DNA of 64,000 nucleotides from Candidatus Gastranaerophilales bacterium (GTDB taxonomy: Bacteria > Cyanobacteriota > Vampirovibrionia > Gastranaerophilales > Gastranaerophilaceae), in contig CALUWJ010000002.1 in assembly GCA_944324455.1 (NCBI GenBank), forward strand, positions 62,001-126,000, read 5' to 3'. Numbering within the stretch: the stretch's first letter is position 1; every line of letters begins with the position of its first letter. Positions 3,949 through 31,206 of this stretch are shown piece after piece. The position numbers were made by a program, and so were the translations under genes. The notes beneath the pieces were generated by a model, which was not told the DNA's origin, made no database searches, and saw only the letters and a program-made list of their open reading frames with translations.

Positions 3949-4986
3949 CTATTTGAGATTTTTGTTATCGTAGTCAATTCTTCCGATTAATTTATTCAGT
4001 TGTTTTGTAACTGATTTAAATTGTTCTATATTAAGGCTTTGTGCGCCATCACACATGGCATTATCAGGGTCATGGTGAACTTCAAACATTAACCCATGGG
4101 CTCCTGCAACAAGGGCAGCTTTTCCCATAGGCTCAATTAAATATCTTTTTCCTGTGCCATGTGATGGGTCAACAATAATAGGAAGATGTGAATACTTTCT
4201 TATTATTGGAACAGCGGCAATGTCAAGAACATTTCTTGAGAATTGCGTATCAAATCCTTTTACGCCTCTTTCACACAGTATAACATTTGGATTACCGTTA
4301 GAAACAACATATTCTGCTGCTAGCAAAAATTCTTTAATTGTTGAAGCAGGTCCCCTTTTAATCATGACAGGTTTTTTTATTCTTCCTAACGCTTTTAATA
4401 GCTTAAAGTTTTGCATATTTCTTGCACCAACTTGTAATACATCTGCGTATTTGCAAAGTAGTGCAATATCCATTGTATCCATTACTTCTGTTACTACTAA
4501 TAAACCAGTTTTTTCTCTTGCTTTTGCAAGATATTGCAAACCTTTTTCTTCCAGTCCTTGAAAATCATAAGGGCTTGTTCTGGGTTTGAAAGCACCTCCT
4601 CTTAGGAATTGACAACCCATTTCTTTTGCTGCCATCGCAACTTGCAAAAGTCCTTCAAAATCTTTTTCAACAGAGCATGGTCCGACCATTAAAACAGGTC
4701 TTTCCAATCCGCCAATTTTAACGCCGTTTGGAAATTTAATTACAGTATCTTCAGGATGTGCAACTCTAGAAACAAGTGTGTAGGGTTCTTGTATTTTTTT
4801 AACTTCTCTAACGCCATCGAGTGCGGCTATATTTTCAGCATTTAAATCTTTTTTATCTCCTAATACAGCAACAACATTTAGTAATTCGCCATTATTTACT
4901 TGGGTTCTCAGTCCTCTATCTTCAACGTATTTTATAACCTTGTTTAGTTGATCTATCGTTGCATTGTGTTCCATTACAATAATCAT
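3949..4986 (-). CDS. aroF: 3-deoxy-7-phosphoheptulonate synthase, type I-beta
   Basis: This 345-residue enzyme joins phosphoenolpyruvate and erythrose 4-phosphate to make DAHP, the first step of the shikimate pathway to aromatic amino acids. Residues 1 to about 70 form the small ferredoxin-like regulatory domain found in the I-beta subgroup (MIIVMEHNATIDQLNKVI). The barrel follows with GPCSVE, GGAFKPRTSPYDFQG, the metal and substrate motif KRGPASTIKEFLLAAEY, and DPSHGTGKR. The start at 4986 matches the usual MIIVM beginning of homologues, with GGAG about 11 bases upstream. It heads a minus-strand run with glyQ and the permeases. In relatives the N-terminal domain carries feedback inhibition. 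Confidence 0.95.
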   Translation of the reverse strand: MIIVMEHNATIDQLNKVIKYVEDRGLRTQVNNGELLNVVAVLGDKKDLNAENIAALDGVREVKKIQEPYTLVSRVAHPEDTVIKFPNGVKIGGLERPVLMVGPCSVEKDFEGLLQVAMAAKEMGCQFLRGGAFKPRTSPYDFQGLEEKGLQYLAKAREKTGLLVVTEVMDTMDIALLCKYADVLQVGARNMQNFKLLKALGRIKKPVMIKRGPASTIKEFLLAAEYVVSNGNPNVILCERGVKGFDTQFSRNVLDIAAVPIIRKYSHLPIIVDPSHGTGKRYLIEPMGKAALVAGAHGLMFEVHHDPDNAMCDGAQSLNIEQFKSVTKQLNKLIGRIDYDNKNLK

Positions 4987-24975: not shown

Positions 24976-27063
24976 TTATGCAAGACCGTATTTTTTTAAT
25001 ACTTCTTGATATTTTGCACTTACTCTGTTGCTTAATTCGCTTTTTGTAATTTGACCGTCTTTATTTGCATCAAGTCCTTTGTTGCCAGAATAATAGCCTT
25101 CAGATGAGTTTGTTAACACTTCTCTTTGAGCTCTGCCCGGTAAGAAAGTATATGCATATAAATCACCGCCTGATAATTCTTGACCTGAGCCTTTAGTCCA
25201 TTGATTATAATATTTTTCAACATAATCTAATTGTTCAATTGCGCTCATATTTGATAGGGCAGAAGTTGAAGTTCCCAATGATTTTGCGGTTGTCGGTGTG
25301 AATTGAATTAATCCTGTTGCATTACAGTAGTTATTAACTGCGGCGGGATTTAAACCGGATTCACTTTGCATCATACCAATTAAATCGGCAGCGCTGCAAT
25401 TTAATTTTTTTGCAACTTCTTCTACTTTTGCACTAAAGCCTGCACCTAGCTTTTCATCAAGTTTTTTAGCCAATTCTTCGGGAATTGTGCCGTTATATGA
25501 TGAAGTTTCGGATTTTTCTTCAGCTTTTTCATCTTGTTTATCCTCAGTTGTACTATCTGCGCTTTTTTCGGTATTTGCCTCAGTTTTTCCTGATTCTTGT
25601 GCTGTTCTTTTGTTGATTTCTTGGTTAACTTCTCTAATATCAGCATTTGCAGTATTTAATACTGCTCTTGTGTCTTGAAGGATTTGTTTGCTTTGAGCAA
25701 GTTGTGTTTCCGCTTGTTCCATTTTTTCCATAGCTTTCATAACAGGGCTATCGGGGTTGTCCTTACAAGCTTCTTGTATTTCTGTTTCGATTTGTTCTTG
25801 TTGTTCTTGTAAATTTGCAAGATTTTCTTCTTGTGCTTGTAATTGTTCTGTTAAGCTGCTTATTTGTTCTTCACAAGCTTGTATTTGTTGTTCATCAGCT
25901 TGAATTTGCGCTTCCATTTGTGCTATTTGAGCTTGAATTGCTTGTCTTTGAGCTTCTATCGCAGCTTGAGCTTCAGGATCATCAGAGCTTGCGCTTTGTA
26001 AGCTTGATAATTGGGATTGCAAATCGCTTAAAGCGCTTGTGTGAGTGCTTAGGTTTTGATTTGCGGTTGATAGTTGAGATTCAGCGTCTGATATACTTTG
26101 ATTTGTTTGAGTAATAGTTTCATTTGCTTCTGTAATAGCTTGAGTATTTTCTTCACTTTTTTGTTTTAGCTCATCGCTTATTTCTTCACTTTTTTGAACT
26201 TCTTCATTATAATCATTTAATGAATTTTGATAGTTGTCGGTTTGTGAATTTACATTTGACTCAGCTTGGCTTACATTGTTTTGAGCTGTTGTAGCATTAT
26301 TTTTTCTTACATCTTGTTCATTTTTAAGTTGATCCATGTTTAATTCGGATAAATTATCAGCAGTTTCTTGCATTGCTCCCATTCCACCACCTAGGGCTCC
26401 TGCTTCTTCCATAGATTCATCTTCAACTGGACCCATTGAACCGCCGCCGCCGGCACCTCCGGCAGCTCCTGCTTCTTCCATTTCATCTATTGACTCATCT
26501 TCTGCTTCTTCATCAATATCGTTTTCTCCAAATAGTGATTTTAATATTTCTTCAGGGTTATATTCAAAATCGCCATTTTTCATACTTTCAAAAGCTTCTT
26601 CTAAGTCTGCTTTTGTCAATTCTTTTTTATCACCTTGTACATAGGTTTCAAAAAGTTCTTTTTCAAGGTCGCTAAGTTCGCCGCTATTATCTATATCTAG
26701 ATATTTTAATGCGTCATCACTTGAATAAATTGTTTCTAATAAGTCTTCAATTTCATTTTGGTTATTGTCAAAGTTGTTTGAATTTGGCATATTAAAATCA
26801 TATGTTTGCATAATTGCTGGCACATTTTGTATATTTTGATAGGATTGTTCAAAAATTGAACCATTATCATTTCCGCTATCTTCAACATAAGTATTATAAT
26901 CATGACTGGACATGAAAGACACGGAATTGTTGTTTTGTGCGTTCATGTTATCAAATATACTGTTATTTAGATTTTGGTTTAAATTTTGTGGAATTTCTTC
27001 GTTATTTGATTGTTTTTTTAAGTATTCAAGAAATTTTGGATCATTTATGGATAATTTATTCAT
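24976..27063 (-). CDS. EF-hand, coiled-coil protein with C-terminal lytic transglycosylase (SLT) domain
   Basis: A 695-residue modular protein. Residues 1-105 are Asn/Ser-rich; an EF-hand loop DIDNSGELSDLE lies at about 123-134; an acidic region with a Gly/Ala linker (AAGAGGAGGGGS type) covers about 180-230; a long Gln/Glu/Ala coiled coil covers about 240-480. The end holds a lysozyme-like SLT domain with MMQSESGLNPAAVN (catalytic Glu), ATGLIQFTPTTA and a second EF-hand DANKDGQITKSE near 665-676. SLT domains cut peptidoglycan glycan strands. No signal peptide is visible, so export must use another route. Its N-terminal and coiled-coil parts are paralogous to the next gene upstream. Confidence 0.88.
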   Translation of the reverse strand: MNKLSINDPKFLEYLKKQSNNEEIPQNLNQNLNNSIFDNMNAQNNNSVSFMSSHDYNTYVEDSGNDNGSIFEQSYQNIQNVPAIMQTYDFNMPNSNNFDNNQNEIEDLLETIYSSDDALKYLDIDNSGELSDLEKELFETYVQGDKKELTKADLEEAFESMKNGDFEYNPEEILKSLFGENDIDEEAEDESIDEMEEAGAAGGAGGGGSMGPVEDESMEEAGALGGGMGAMQETADNLSELNMDQLKNEQDVRKNNATTAQNNVSQAESNVNSQTDNYQNSLNDYNEEVQKSEEISDELKQKSEENTQAITEANETITQTNQSISDAESQLSTANQNLSTHTSALSDLQSQLSSLQSASSDDPEAQAAIEAQRQAIQAQIAQMEAQIQADEQQIQACEEQISSLTEQLQAQEENLANLQEQQEQIETEIQEACKDNPDSPVMKAMEKMEQAETQLAQSKQILQDTRAVLNTANADIREVNQEINKRTAQESGKTEANTEKSADSTTEDKQDEKAEEKSETSSYNGTIPEELAKKLDEKLGAGFSAKVEEVAKKLNCSAADLIGMMQSESGLNPAAVNNYCNATGLIQFTPTTAKSLGTSTSALSNMSAIEQLDYVEKYYNQWTKGSGQELSGGDLYAYTFLPGRAQREVLTNSSEGYYSGNKGLDANKDGQITKSELSNRVSAKYQEVLKKYGLA

Positions 27064-27106
27064 TGTTCACACCTCTTGTATGTTTTATAATTCCTAAATT
27101 ATTTAA

Positions 27107-28771
27107 TTAATATGGCATCATTATATTTTTATTGCTAAAACCATTTGCATATGTGGTTTTTGGCTGAGATGATGCTTTTTCGTACTTACTTAGTTGTGCT
27201 TGAGGATATCTTTTGCTGATTTCCATATTCACTTCTTTTACTTCGGAATTAGCACTTGTTAAAACATCTCTGGAGTCTTGAAGTTGTTGTTTGGCTTCAG
27301 ATAATTTAGCCTCGCTTGCTTCAACTTTTTCCATTGCTTTCATAACAGGGCTATCAGGATTATCTTTACAAGCTTCTTCTATTTCTTGATTGATTGCTTC
27401 TTGTTCTTCTTGAAGTTTTGCAAGAGCTTCTTCTTGTGCTTCTAATTGGGCATTTAAGCCTTCTTCACCATTTAGTTGTTCTTCTAAGCTTTGAATTTGT
27501 TCTTCATCGGATTGAATTTGAGATTGCATTTGTGCAATTTGAGCTTGAAGTGCTTGTCTTTGTGCTTCTATCGCAGCTTGTGCTTCAGGATCATCAGAGC
27601 TTGCGCTTTGAAGACTTGCTAATTGGGATTCTAAATCGCTTAATGAAGCTGTATGTTCGCTTAATTGTTGGTTAGCAGTAGTTAATTGTGATTCTGTTTG
27701 AGATATTTGATCGTTAATAGATGTAATAGTATCATTTGCAGCTTTTATTGCTTCTGTGTTTGCTTCACTTTTTTCTTTTAATTCTTCATTTAATTCTTCA
27801 TTTTTTTGTACTTCTTCATTAAAATCATCTAGGGCATTATCATATTCCCCTGATTGTGATTTAACATTTGATTCGGCATTTGATACATTGCTTTGAGCTG
27901 TATCAGCGCTACCTTGTCTTTTATCTCTTTCAGCTTCTAATTGTTCTAAATCCATTTCAGCTAAATTAGCTGATGAAGATTCAACAGCCCCCATAGAACC
28001 GCTTCCACCGCCAGTAGCAGCTGCTTCTTCAGTTTCTTCAGTTTCACCTGTTTCTTCTGTTTCTTCAACTTCTTCTGTTTCTTCTGTGGCTTCAGTTTCT
28101 TCTAGGGCTTCTTCTTCCGAAAGTTCATCTTCTTCTTCAACACCGCCCATTCCGCCTCCGCCACCGGCACCGCCGGCTCCAGCTGCTTCTTCTGATTCTT
28201 CAGCTTTTTCAGTTTCCTCTTCTTTTTCTGATTCTTCTTTATCAACTTTTTCAGAATTACCTAGTTCAGGCATATTTTGACCGAAAATCATTTCTAAAAG
28301 CTCTTCAAAGTCATATTCAAAATCGCCTTTTTGCATACTTTCAAAGGCTTTTTTTAAGTCATCAATACTTAGTTCTTCTTTATCACCTTGTACATAGGTT
28401 TGGAATAATTCTTTTTCAAAGTCACTTAGTTCTCTATCTGTGTTAATATCAAGATATTTAAGTGCTTCATCACTTTCATAAATAGTATCTAGTAGTTCAC
28501 TCATCTCATCAGATTTGTCAGTGTTGTTAGTATCGGTTTTATTTGATGATGTACTTGAATTGGTAGTATTACTTGTATTTGTTGAATTTTCCTGTTGGTC
28601 AAAAATAGTACCAGATTCATCTCCTTTTTGCGAAATCATAGCATTTAGCTCATTTACATCCATAAATACGTTTAAATTAATGCTTGACCCGCTTTCAGGA
28701 GAAATTTTTCCATCTTTCACCAATTCAAGGTATTTTTCATAAATTTGATTAATAGAAGATATATTTTCCAT
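27107..28771 (-). CDS. EF-hand-like coiled-coil protein, paralogue lacking the transglycosylase domain
   Basis: The ATG at 28771 has AGGGG 6 bases upstream; a GTG at 28777 is less likely. The 554-residue product repeats the plan of the downstream gene: Ser/Asn-rich start, EF-hand-like loop DINTDRELSDFE (the central Gly is replaced by Arg), a very acidic stretch of Glu/Thr repeats, a Gly/Ala linker, and a long coiled coil with SSDDPEAQAAIEAQRQ and EACKDNPDSPVMKAMEK shared with the paralogue. It ends with a short basic tail (about 50 residues) instead of an SLT domain. No signal peptide is visible. The 43-base gap to the next gene suggests one operon. Confidence 0.85.
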   Translation of the reverse strand: MENISSINQIYEKYLELVKDGKISPESGSSINLNVFMDVNELNAMISQKGDESGTIFDQQENSTNTSNTTNSSTSSNKTDTNNTDKSDEMSELLDTIYESDEALKYLDINTDRELSDFEKELFQTYVQGDKEELSIDDLKKAFESMQKGDFEYDFEELLEMIFGQNMPELGNSEKVDKEESEKEEETEKAEESEEAAGAGGAGGGGGMGGVEEEDELSEEEALEETEATEETEEVEETEETGETEETEEAAATGGGSGSMGAVESSSANLAEMDLEQLEAERDKRQGSADTAQSNVSNAESNVKSQSGEYDNALDDFNEEVQKNEELNEELKEKSEANTEAIKAANDTITSINDQISQTESQLTTANQQLSEHTASLSDLESQLASLQSASSDDPEAQAAIEAQRQALQAQIAQMQSQIQSDEEQIQSLEEQLNGEEGLNAQLEAQEEALAKLQEEQEAINQEIEEACKDNPDSPVMKAMEKVEASEAKLSEAKQQLQDSRDVLTSANSEVKEVNMEISKRYPQAQLSKYEKASSQPKTTYANGFSNKNIMMPY

Positions 28772-28801
28772 ACACACACCCCTTATTCTACTACATTTAG
28801 T

Positions 28802-28865: not shown

Positions 28866-28902
28866 TGTTTAAAAATAAAAACAGGGGGAGCATAAGCTCC
28901 CC
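28866..28902 (-). terminator. rho-independent terminator of the cysteine-rich pilin gene
   Basis: GGGGAGC / GCTCCCC stem (28885-28902) with loop TTAT on the minus strand, followed by TGTTTTTATTTTT, 63 bases after the stop. Confidence 0.85.
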
Positions 28903-28965: not shown

Positions 28966-30327
28966 TTATATATCAGACACACATCGGACTGATTTTGCAT
29001 AGAACTCATTCTCTCCATAATCTTCTCCCCAATCACCTTTAAAAAGAGAGTAAGTGGTAAGTCCAAGACTACTAGCTCCCGTTGTCCATATTGAAAAAAC
29101 ACTGCAAACCCCTGAGCGAGAACAACCCCAATTATAAGCACATTGAGTTGATGAATAACCAGAATATGCATCACATAATTGCAAACCGCCAGCTCCTTTT
29201 CCTATAGAGTACGCAGCAAATTTACTTGCCTCATTCAAGCTTGGTAAACGCCATGGTCTTGAACCAATCTTTAATTTTGAACAAATATCTTCAGCAGCCC
29301 AATAATTACAAACTGTTCTATTACAGCCTGAATAGTCTCCATAAGCGCTATCACAAGAACCAGGCATTCCCGTTTGGCCTTTCCAACATATAGGTGTATC
29401 GTTTGAATCATAATTATTGCCGGCTGAAACAGTAAGTGTAGAATATGGGATGGTTAAATCTGGATGATCGCCTATATTATATTTAGTAACCATTAGATTA
29501 CCAACAGCCATATACGGAGATGATTTGCAAGCAGGATTTTGTGACGGATTAGAGCTCAATTCATACCCGCCCGTACAAGTTGCACATGCACTAGCCGTAC
29601 AACTTGTACAATTAGCTCCAAATAAAGCATTACAATCAGGTACACAAGTATTTCCACTTAATTTATACCCGCTTATACATCCTGTACATGCGCTAGCTGT
29701 ACAACTAGTACAAGTACTTCCAAATTTAGTTGGACAATTAGCTACACATCTGCCATTAATTAAATCATATCCACCGGTACAAGTTGTACAATTATCAATA
29801 TTACATGCTGTACATGCTGAACTAAATAATGTTGTACAATCTGGAACACAAGCTCCATTATCCAGTTTATAATTAGTCTTACAAGTCTTACATTTTACCT
29901 CATCACATGTAGCACAATTAGGATATTTTGTATCACAATTAGTACATGTATTTCCATTAGGATATTTACCATCTTTACAACTTAAACATCCGTCACTACT
30001 ACATGTTAAACAATCAGTCCCATAATCAATAGAACAATCTATACATTTACATTTAGCTAAATTTCTATATTGACCAGATGGACATGATTCAATAGAACAC
30101 ATAATACAATTATCTTTATAGCAAAGCTTACAACTAGGTGAAATATCCTTACATTCATCACTCCAACCGTTTGAACTGCCTCCACCACCAAAAACACCAC
30201 TTGAAAATTTCTTTGTGATAATCGGTGTAAAAGCTGCTGTGATACAACTAATCACAATTAAGCTGATTAATAGCTCAATTAGTGAAAACGCTAATTTTTT
30301 AGAATACATTTTAAATCTTCTTTCCAT
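28966..30327 (-). CDS. type IV pilin-like protein with a cysteine-rich repeat body
   Basis: The N-terminus is a prepilin: KKLA followed by FSLIELLISLIVISCITAAF, with cleavage expected after the Ala and Glu at position 5 of the mature chain. The start at 30327 has GGGGA nearby; an ATG at 30309 (MYSKK) is also possible. After the helix comes a Gly/Ser hinge and about 215 residues with 38 cysteines by my count, about 13 of them in CxxC pairs, arranged in repeats of about 40-45 residues such as CTSCTASACTGC. These resemble furin-like or Giardia VSP-type repeats. The C-terminal domain (WRLPSLNEASKFAAY) resembles the DUF1566/Lcl-type domain of bacterial surface proteins. The mature protein is probably surface exposed or on a pilus. 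Confidence 0.82.
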   Translation of the reverse strand: MERRFKMYSKKLAFSLIELLISLIVISCITAAFTPIITKKFSSGVFGGGGSSNGWSDECKDISPSCKLCYKDNCIMCSIESCPSGQYRNLAKCKCIDCSIDYGTDCLTCSSDGCLSCKDGKYPNGNTCTNCDTKYPNCATCDEVKCKTCKTNYKLDNGACVPDCTTLFSSACTACNIDNCTTCTGGYDLINGRCVANCPTKFGSTCTSCTASACTGCISGYKLSGNTCVPDCNALFGANCTSCTASACATCTGGYELSSNPSQNPACKSSPYMAVGNLMVTKYNIGDHPDLTIPYSTLTVSAGNNYDSNDTPICWKGQTGMPGSCDSAYGDYSGCNRTVCNYWAAEDICSKLKIGSRPWRLPSLNEASKFAAYSIGKGAGGLQLCDAYSGYSSTQCAYNWGCSRSGVCSVFSIWTTGASSLGLTTYSLFKGDWGEDYGENEFYAKSVRCVSDI

Positions 30328-30348: not shown

Positions 30349-30375
30349 TTATAAGTTATATATTATAACTTATAA
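30349..30375. promoter_or_regulatory. operator 1, perfect 12-bp inverted repeat
   Basis: TTATAAGTTATA, spacer TAT, TATAACTTATAA. The half-site TTATAAGT also occurs in operator 2. It covers the -10 of the pilin promoter. It is a likely binding site for the adjacent XRE repressor. Confidence 0.7.
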
Positions 30376-30416: not shown

Positions 30417-30641
30417 ATGGATAAAGAAAGTTTATTGAAAAAATTCGGCAAAAATGTAAAAATAGAAAGAATTAAAAAAGATTTAACACAAGAGCAACTT
30501 GCCGAAATAATGAATGTATCACAAAATTATATTGCCAATATTGAACGGGGAAAGGCAAATATGTCATTAGCAAAAATATATGAACTATCTAAATTTTTAA
30601 ATGTTAATATTGAAAAATTGCTCGTTTTTAGCGAGAATTAA
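30417..30641 (+). CDS. XRE-family (Cro/CI-type) transcriptional regulator
   Basis: The 74-residue protein is a single helix-turn-helix domain: FGKNVKIERIKKDLTQEQLA, then EIMNVSQNYIANIERGKANM and LAKIYELSKFLNVNIEKLL. It is small and has no extra domain, like Cro or antitoxin-type repressors. No ribosome site is visible, and a -10 box ends 7 bases before the ATG, so the mRNA may be leaderless. It is divergent from the pilin gene with two inverted-repeat operators between them, which supports control of both itself and the pilin. Its end overlaps the convergent NUDIX gene by 14 bases. Confidence 0.9.
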   Translation: MDKESLLKKFGKNVKIERIKKDLTQEQLAEIMNVSQNYIANIERGKANMSLAKIYELSKFLNVNIEKLLVFSEN

Positions 30642-31206
30642 TTCTCTCCAGTGCATAATAAACTCCGCAAACAAGTGCTGCAGCAACAGAAATTTCTTTT
30701 TGATTAATTGTTTTTAAATATTGACTTACGTTATTTATAGGAATAAAAAAGCGCTCCTGTATAACTCCTCCATCTGAAACAGGTTTTTGGACGATATTAT
30801 AAGAATTGCATATTGCAGTTATATATGTCAAAGTTTCACTAGATAAACCTGCGCTTGTTGATGAGTTTTTTAACTCAATATAAATTTCATCTGCAATAAG
30901 CCCTGTTTCTTCTAATAGCTCTTTTTTGGTGCACTCTAAAAGCGTTTCATCTTTATCGATATCAGCAATTAGACCAGCCGGAGATTCAAGGCAATATTTA
31001 GCTTTATTTTCGGATGTGATAGGAGGTCTATTTGTTTTCATAAATAGAAAATTATATTCATCATTAATTTTAACTATTGTAGTTATAGCAACAGCGCTGT
31101 CTAAATTTGGTTTATCGTTAGTTCTTTTAACATAATACCAATCATGACCGGATGGCGAGATTGCGGATTTAAAGTCCAGATATTTTGATGTATTAATTAT
31201 TGGCAT
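30628..31206 (-). CDS. NUDIX hydrolase
   Basis: The 192-residue protein carries a NUDIX box, ETLLECTKKELLEETGLI, with Lys in place of the first Arg of REuxEExGu and the leading Gly three residues further upstream than usual. PAGLIADIDKDE precedes it, as in the ADP-ribose/ADP-sugar pyrophosphatase group, and SSETLTYITAICNS follows. It would hydrolyse a nucleoside diphosphate linked to another group. The substrate is uncertain. GAGGTG precedes the ATG. It overlaps thiE by 14 bases and follows it in the same operon. Confidence 0.85.
   Translation of the reverse strand: MPIINTSKYLDFKSAISPSGHDWYYVKRTNDKPNLDSAVAITTIVKINDEYNFLFMKTNRPPITSENKAKYCLESPAGLIADIDKDETLLECTKKELLEETGLIADEIYIELKNSSTSAGLSSETLTYITAICNSYNIVQKPVSDGGVIQERFFIPINNVSQYLKTINQKEISVAAALVCGVYYALERINSR

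Follow-up and report, generated by a model that had tools for sequence, protein, structure and literature searches.

We conclude that the gene analysed here most likely belongs to a repertoire of disulfide-rod adhesins that are interchangeable, under regulation and brought to the cell surface via type IV pilin export. The gene lies in a stretch of 64,000 nucleotides (the window, G000:C2:62001-126000) of a Candidatus Gastranaerophilales genome. This genome is a 1.76-Mb draft of 40 contigs, and many copies of the gene family are located at contig ends. The gene is probably one of several copies in a family of surface proteins that is restricted to this lineage and uses the type IV pilin route for export. 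At the level of DNA sequence, we established that the proteins of this family have a prepilin N-terminus, a stalk built from six-cysteine units and, in some copies, a head; that gene conversion takes place between copies; that an XRE regulator is encoded divergently; and that a diversity-generating retroelement (DGR) acts on eight sister genes.

The window gene (28966..30327, minus strand) encodes a prepilin-like cysteine-rich protein of 453 amino acids, in which a leader and helix are followed by a stalk and a head. Over the part shared with the paralogs, it evolves as a coding sequence (dN/dS 0.22-0.57). Residues 1-40 (30208..30327, minus strand) make up a prepilin leader with a hydrophobic helix, which occupies residues 16-40 in the structural model. 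This region carries a class III leader of the form [G/A]↓F-S-L-[IV]-E and is near-invariant in the paralogs, with F14, S15 and E18 identical throughout the paralog alignment. In the Pfam scan of the window protein the N_methyl domain scored 19.8 bits, just below the cut-off of 21.2, and in the whole-genome Pfam scan the window gene scored 24.2 bits, above the cut-off, as the paralogs do. The residue at position -1 of the predicted cleavage site (KKLA↓FSLIELL) is Ala, while most paralogs have Gly. Prepilin peptidases less often cut after Ala, and this counts against our explanation. The same genome encodes a PilD-like prepilin peptidase (Peptidase_A24 at C8:82007) and PilB/PilT-like assembly ATPases (T2SSE at C8:63072, C22:14582 and C8:5542). 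The original prediction of a real open reading frame with a prepilin N-terminus, a cysteine-rich body and an Lcl/DUF1566-like C-terminal head was confirmed. Its suggestion of a displayed adhesin is supported indirectly by the prepilin signal, the PilB/PilT-like and PilD-like genes, the lectin-like head and the DGR-targeted sister genes.

The family has about fourteen members in this genome. Among the paralogs the pilin module is nearly unchanged and the first stalk units are 48-87% identical, and beyond them the sequences diverge. The total number of stalk units varies from 5 to 12, and the number of heads from zero to two. About half of the copies are head-less and finish in additional cysteine units. 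The window gene shares two exact tracts with paralogs, one with L031 (206 nt, residues 53-121; shuffle maximum 123) and one with L033 (205 nt, residues 75-142; shuffle maximum 63). Over about 720 aligned nt, the overall identity to the window gene is 91% for L031 and 82% for L033. Since the identical tracts far exceed the lengths obtained from shuffled mismatches, we attribute them to recent gene conversion between copies. When 146 genomes of the taxonomic family were searched, most matches at the level of the stalk fell within the genus of the window, and head or pilin matches were spread more widely; looser versions of cysteine-rich pilins are present in further related MAGs, and the relatives that carry names are Candidatus Gastranaerophilales MAGs. 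Because the stalk is lineage-restricted and its unit number differs between paralogs, the body of the protein does not belong to a common bacterial pilin family with a fixed repeat number, which the original prediction had named as the outcome that would speak against it.

A gene for an XRE (HTH_3) regulator of 74 amino acids (30417..30641, plus strand; Pfam HTH_3, 57.5 bits) is transcribed divergently from the window pilin. A distance of 89 bp separates the two start codons. Between them lies a 27-bp perfect inverted repeat, TTATAAGTTATA-TAT-TATAACTTATAA (30349..30375), which was matched in 0 of 200 shuffles and is a candidate operator. The XRE protein may repress the window pilin via this palindrome. 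When we counted regulators at the 13 family loci with independent upstream sequence, 11 proved to have an HTH_3 gene in divergent orientation at a distance of 100-360 bp upstream. The exceptions are L040, which has no regulator, and L039, where a repressor-like gene of the S24 type is found instead; the divergent regulator at L039:5020-5649 is an S24-peptidase (CI/LexA-like) protein and not a small XRE. Thus, 11 of the 25 HTH_3 matches in the whole genome stand back-to-back with the cysteine-stalk pilin family. None of the six pilins outside the family has a divergent XRE gene (Fisher p=0.001), and the rough expectation is 0.3% per gene. The same arrangement is present at most loci of relatives. 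The mutual identity of the regulators averages 28% (range 17-40), far below that of the pilins opposite them; such divergence speaks for a private specificity of each regulator. A search for a shared operator across all XRE-pilin pairs yielded an exceptional palindrome at two loci only, that of the window and L037. This counts against our explanation, as do the exceptions L040 and L039, the fold matches with E>0.01 and the draft state of the genome.

The NUDIX gene adjoining the window pilin is present in six sister species, and the pilin and XRE genes are absent there. In three of these species (G057, G107 and G127) NUDIX faces lepA. In the genome of the window (G000) NUDIX and lepA (window 30628-31206 and L040:2684-4579) lie apart on separate contigs, and a pilin of the family follows at both broken ends, that of the window at one and that of L040 at the other. 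We also looked for a clean empty site in the sister species; the pilin and XRE genes are missing, but the neighbours differ too. The simplest reading is an insertion followed by recombination between copies. On the 3' side, a terminator-like hairpin (28885..28902, minus strand) lies in a flank common to the head-less paralogs and the DGR template locus. Farther along, at 24976-28777, the window encodes two adjacent similar coiled-coil-rich proteins. The one at 24976-27063 extends into a transglycosylase-like and EF-hand-like end, and the one at 27107-28777 ends earlier.

These data bear on whether the family consists of ordinary minor pilins or pseudopilins, that is, tip proteins of a type IV pilus or of a T2SS-like system with structural heads. 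The XRE protein would then only adjust the dose, and the window gene would have no role in variation or ligand diversity. The prepilin signal, the type IV pilus genes and the purifying selection agree with such a function, as does a window head free of DGR change. However, fourteen copies with stalks of variable length, about half of them head-less, together with conversion tracts and DGR-targeted sisters, exceed the needs of a fixed tip, and the pilin with its regulator is missing at the window site in six sister species. We therefore regard this alternative as rather unlikely.

The stalk (residues 56-270; 29518..30162, minus strand) contains 38 Cys and 14 CxxC motifs in 215 residues. It turned out that 2000 shuffles of the stalk residues produced 6.5 CxxC on average and at most 14, so the number in the stalk exceeds what composition alone would produce. 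The stalk is built of six units of 32-40 residues in a regular register that is common to all paralogs. The unit is C-x2-C-x4-C-x2-C-x3-Y-x-L-...-C-x2-3-C, with six Cys in 32-34 residues; the first unit alone has 40. The density of cysteines and CxxC pairs was thus predicted correctly, and the proposed period of 40-45 residues was overstated. In an AlphaFold2 model of the whole protein (23 sequences, mean pLDDT 80.9), the stalk forms a rod-like chain of beta-hairpins. Among the PDB fold neighbours found by Foldseek, the best coherent group was R-spondin Fu1-Fu2, with a probability of up to 0.98 and E-values of only 0.015-0.05; the matches to viral models were repetitive and of low probability and were discarded. 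This weakly suggests a furin-like fold. Searches with the stalk sequence in Pfam, NCBIfam and PDB gave no match, although the composition bias correction of HMMER may hide a weak kinship. The furin-like body of the original prediction is consequently favoured by fold, weakly, and not by sequence.

CxxC motifs can bind Zn, Cu or Fe-S. The many such motifs in the stalk could accordingly belong to a metal- or redox-active surface filament, serving metal storage or electron transfer, and not to a structural rod. Against this, the six-Cys spacing leads to a furin-like fold in both the model and the fold search, and the repeat consensus does not include the CxxCH haem motif. In addition, the genome encodes a VKOR-family oxidase, and disulfides are therefore a simpler reading of the stalk cysteines than the metal binding named in the original prediction. 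An active filament of this kind seems improbable to us.

The genome contains one RVT_1 gene, on contig C12. A bAvd gene stands before it (Pfam 42.7 bits at a cut-off of 40; NCBIfam Avd 48.9 bits, under the cut-off of 80), and the reverse transcriptase carries IGNLTSQ, a motif usual in DGR enzymes. After the reverse transcriptase gene there are two tandem copies of the C-terminal part of the head. In L075 (G000:C12:50500-54488) these template-like repeats occupy 1329-1548 and 1766-1982 of the minus strand and have near-identical flanks. The second repeat (TR2) fits eleven variable regions in eight family genes on eight contigs, and the first (TR1) fits none found. Mismatches are adenine-specific in all eleven variable regions, with p from 3e-4 to 2e-15. 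For example, L038 differs from TR2 at 18 of 52 adenines and 0 of 124 other positions; the corresponding values are 25/55 and 3/151 for the internal region of L042, and 30/55 and 6/151 for the C-terminal region of L041. As far as the mismatch pattern in the sequences goes, it demonstrates that heads in eight genes of the family are rewritten by the DGR. The C-terminal targets L035, L040, L041 and L042 are followed by a TTGGGC-GCAA-GCCCAA hairpin, by analogy probably of the kind that DGRs use downstream of a target. Not all variable regions are C-terminal: five of the eleven are internal (L039, L040, L041, L042 and L043); each has stalk after it, and four of the five proteins have a second head.

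Related loci show further variants of these heads. The proteins at L090:8091-11156, L093:5011-8052 and L095:4930-8037 have four heads in tandem. The variable parts of their later heads are near-identical within a protein and different between proteins, as if homogenised per gene. In L099 (G021:C3) the copy adjacent to the reverse transcriptase and the cis variable region (2318-2530 and 4457-4669) differ at T, C and A. Because the differences go beyond A, genome G021 was not counted as proof of adenine specificity. A third template, rich in adenines, may have given rise to both.

The head of the window protein (residues 268-453; 28969..29526, minus strand) matches Lcl_C below the Pfam cut-off (E=0.011, 16.4 bits). 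It is homologous to the paralog heads, which score 39-41 bits, above the cut-off. AlphaFold2 modelled the head alone (24 sequences) with a pLDDT of 90.4 and a pTM of 0.88. The Foldseek matches include PvdO, EgtB, the DGR variable protein TvpA (2y3c) and C-type lectins, at E 0.02-3. Like those of the stalk, these matches are weak by E-value (E>0.01), yet they form coherent groups, and they suggest an FGE/C-type-lectin-like fold.

Part of this head (28978..29181, minus strand) is homologous to the DGR variable region of the sister genes. We considered the window head as a present DGR target and rejected this. Its mismatches with the template fall at 36 of 53 adenines (68%) and 80 of 147 non-adenine positions (54%), so that non-adenine positions differ nearly as often (p=0.06). 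Moreover, two features of the C-terminal targets are missing from the window head, the conserved CGCTGTGTCAC stretch and the flank with the GCAA-loop hairpin. We therefore regard this head as a diverged, non-targeted homolog. The same applies to the second of the two heads of L043 and to that of the other L039 gene. One could still suppose that the window head is a current variable region whose template lies outside this assembly, since the head is homologous, sister genes are targeted and the draft genome is split into 40 contigs. Given the mismatch pattern, the missing flank and the single reverse transcriptase gene of the genome, this is very improbable.

The original prediction also compared the stalk with the variant-specific surface proteins (VSPs) of Giardia, whose hallmarks are a GGCY motif, a C-terminal transmembrane segment and a CRGKA tail. 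The two are alike in having CxxC-rich repeats and belonging to a multigene family. In contrast to VSPs, the window protein is anchored by an N-terminal pilin module and has neither GGCY nor the CRGKA tail nor a C-terminal transmembrane or hydrophobic segment, and homology was not found. The one GGCY in the family, in L032, lies inside a repeat unit. No profile of a VSP or other cysteine-rich family in Pfam matched the window protein at E<=1, where composition bias correction may mask weak kinship. The similarity to VSPs is thus a mere resemblance. Because the hallmarks are absent and the graded relatives lie inside Gastranaerophilales, acquisition from a protist is unsupported, and convergence, the other origin proposed, fits the data. 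A gut-protist protein fused to a pilin, which the CxxC density and the GY-L spacing reminiscent of VSP/furin repeats might bring to mind, can hardly be credited with no Pfam cysteine-rich family matched, no VSP tail or anchor, and graded homologs in one bacterial genus with looser ones in related MAGs.

In a repertoire of disulfide-rod adhesins, PilD would cleave the leader, and the N-terminal helix would serve as the anchor, either in the membrane or in a pilus or pseudopilus of which the protein would be a minor (tip) subunit. The six-Cys units would fold into a stiff, disulfide-locked, furin-like rod that keeps the head off the cell, and the head would bind a ligand on another cell, a particle or the gut surface. 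The divergent regulator would bind the intergenic palindrome and repress the pilin until the block is lifted; which family members are displayed could then differ between cells or conditions. The window copy would be a member of fixed specificity, and the diversity of the set would come from the exchange and conversion of stalk units, from which member is chosen and from the mutagenesis of others by the DGR. A bolder version is bacterial antigenic variation on pilin stalks, in which disulfide-rod adhesins under private repressors vary at three levels: member choice, stalk-unit conversion and DGR rewriting, including that of internal heads. We put this forward tentatively and do not consider it likely as it stands. 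Gastranaerophilales are uncultured gut relatives of cyanobacteria, and little is known about their contacts with the host and neighbours. A genome of 1.76 Mb invests heavily when it maintains about 14 such surface proteins, devotes 11 of its 25 HTH_3 matches to them and has part of the set rewritten by a retroelement. The members of the family are concrete candidates for a function in attachment, or in evading immunity or phages.

Several known systems resemble parts of this family. DUF1566 is the commonest Pfam domain in DGR targets and has a reported C-type-lectin fold; pilin-linked DUF1566 targets and cases with multiple variable regions have already been described (PMC6642488). The head of the window protein appears to be of the family found in the DGR variable proteins with DUF1566/Lcl (PMC6642488, PMC8144416), with a C-type-lectin-like fold suggested by weak matches that include TvpA, and its sister genes are likewise adenine-mutated targets of a bAvd/RT DGR. 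It differs in that its own head is untargeted and stands on a long cysteine stalk. A large survey found the C-terminal position of the variable region to be near-universal (PMC8144416). The five internal variable regions in the genome of the window are unlike this, and they extend DGR targets to internal, multi-headed positions. In the literature searched we found no paper on a cysteine-rich pilin or on DGRs in Melainabacteria/Gastranaerophilales, which is not proof of absence. With type IV minor pilins (TIGR02532, PF07963) the window protein shares the leader and the FSLxE-type helix, and its genome the prepilin peptidase and ATPases. A pilin globular domain was not found in the protein, which has a cysteine stalk and a lectin-like head instead. 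The six-Cys beta-hairpin units may be similar to furin-like (FU) repeats such as R-spondin Fu1-Fu2, whereas the stalk is bacterial and matches them weakly by fold (E 0.015-0.05), not at the sequence level. Furin-like units, so far mostly eukaryotic, would here be joined to a bacterial pilin anchor. Thus, combinations of prepilin, DUF1566 and DGR are known already, and the furin-like stalk, the private XRE regulators, the gene conversion of the stalk and the internal variable heads are new.
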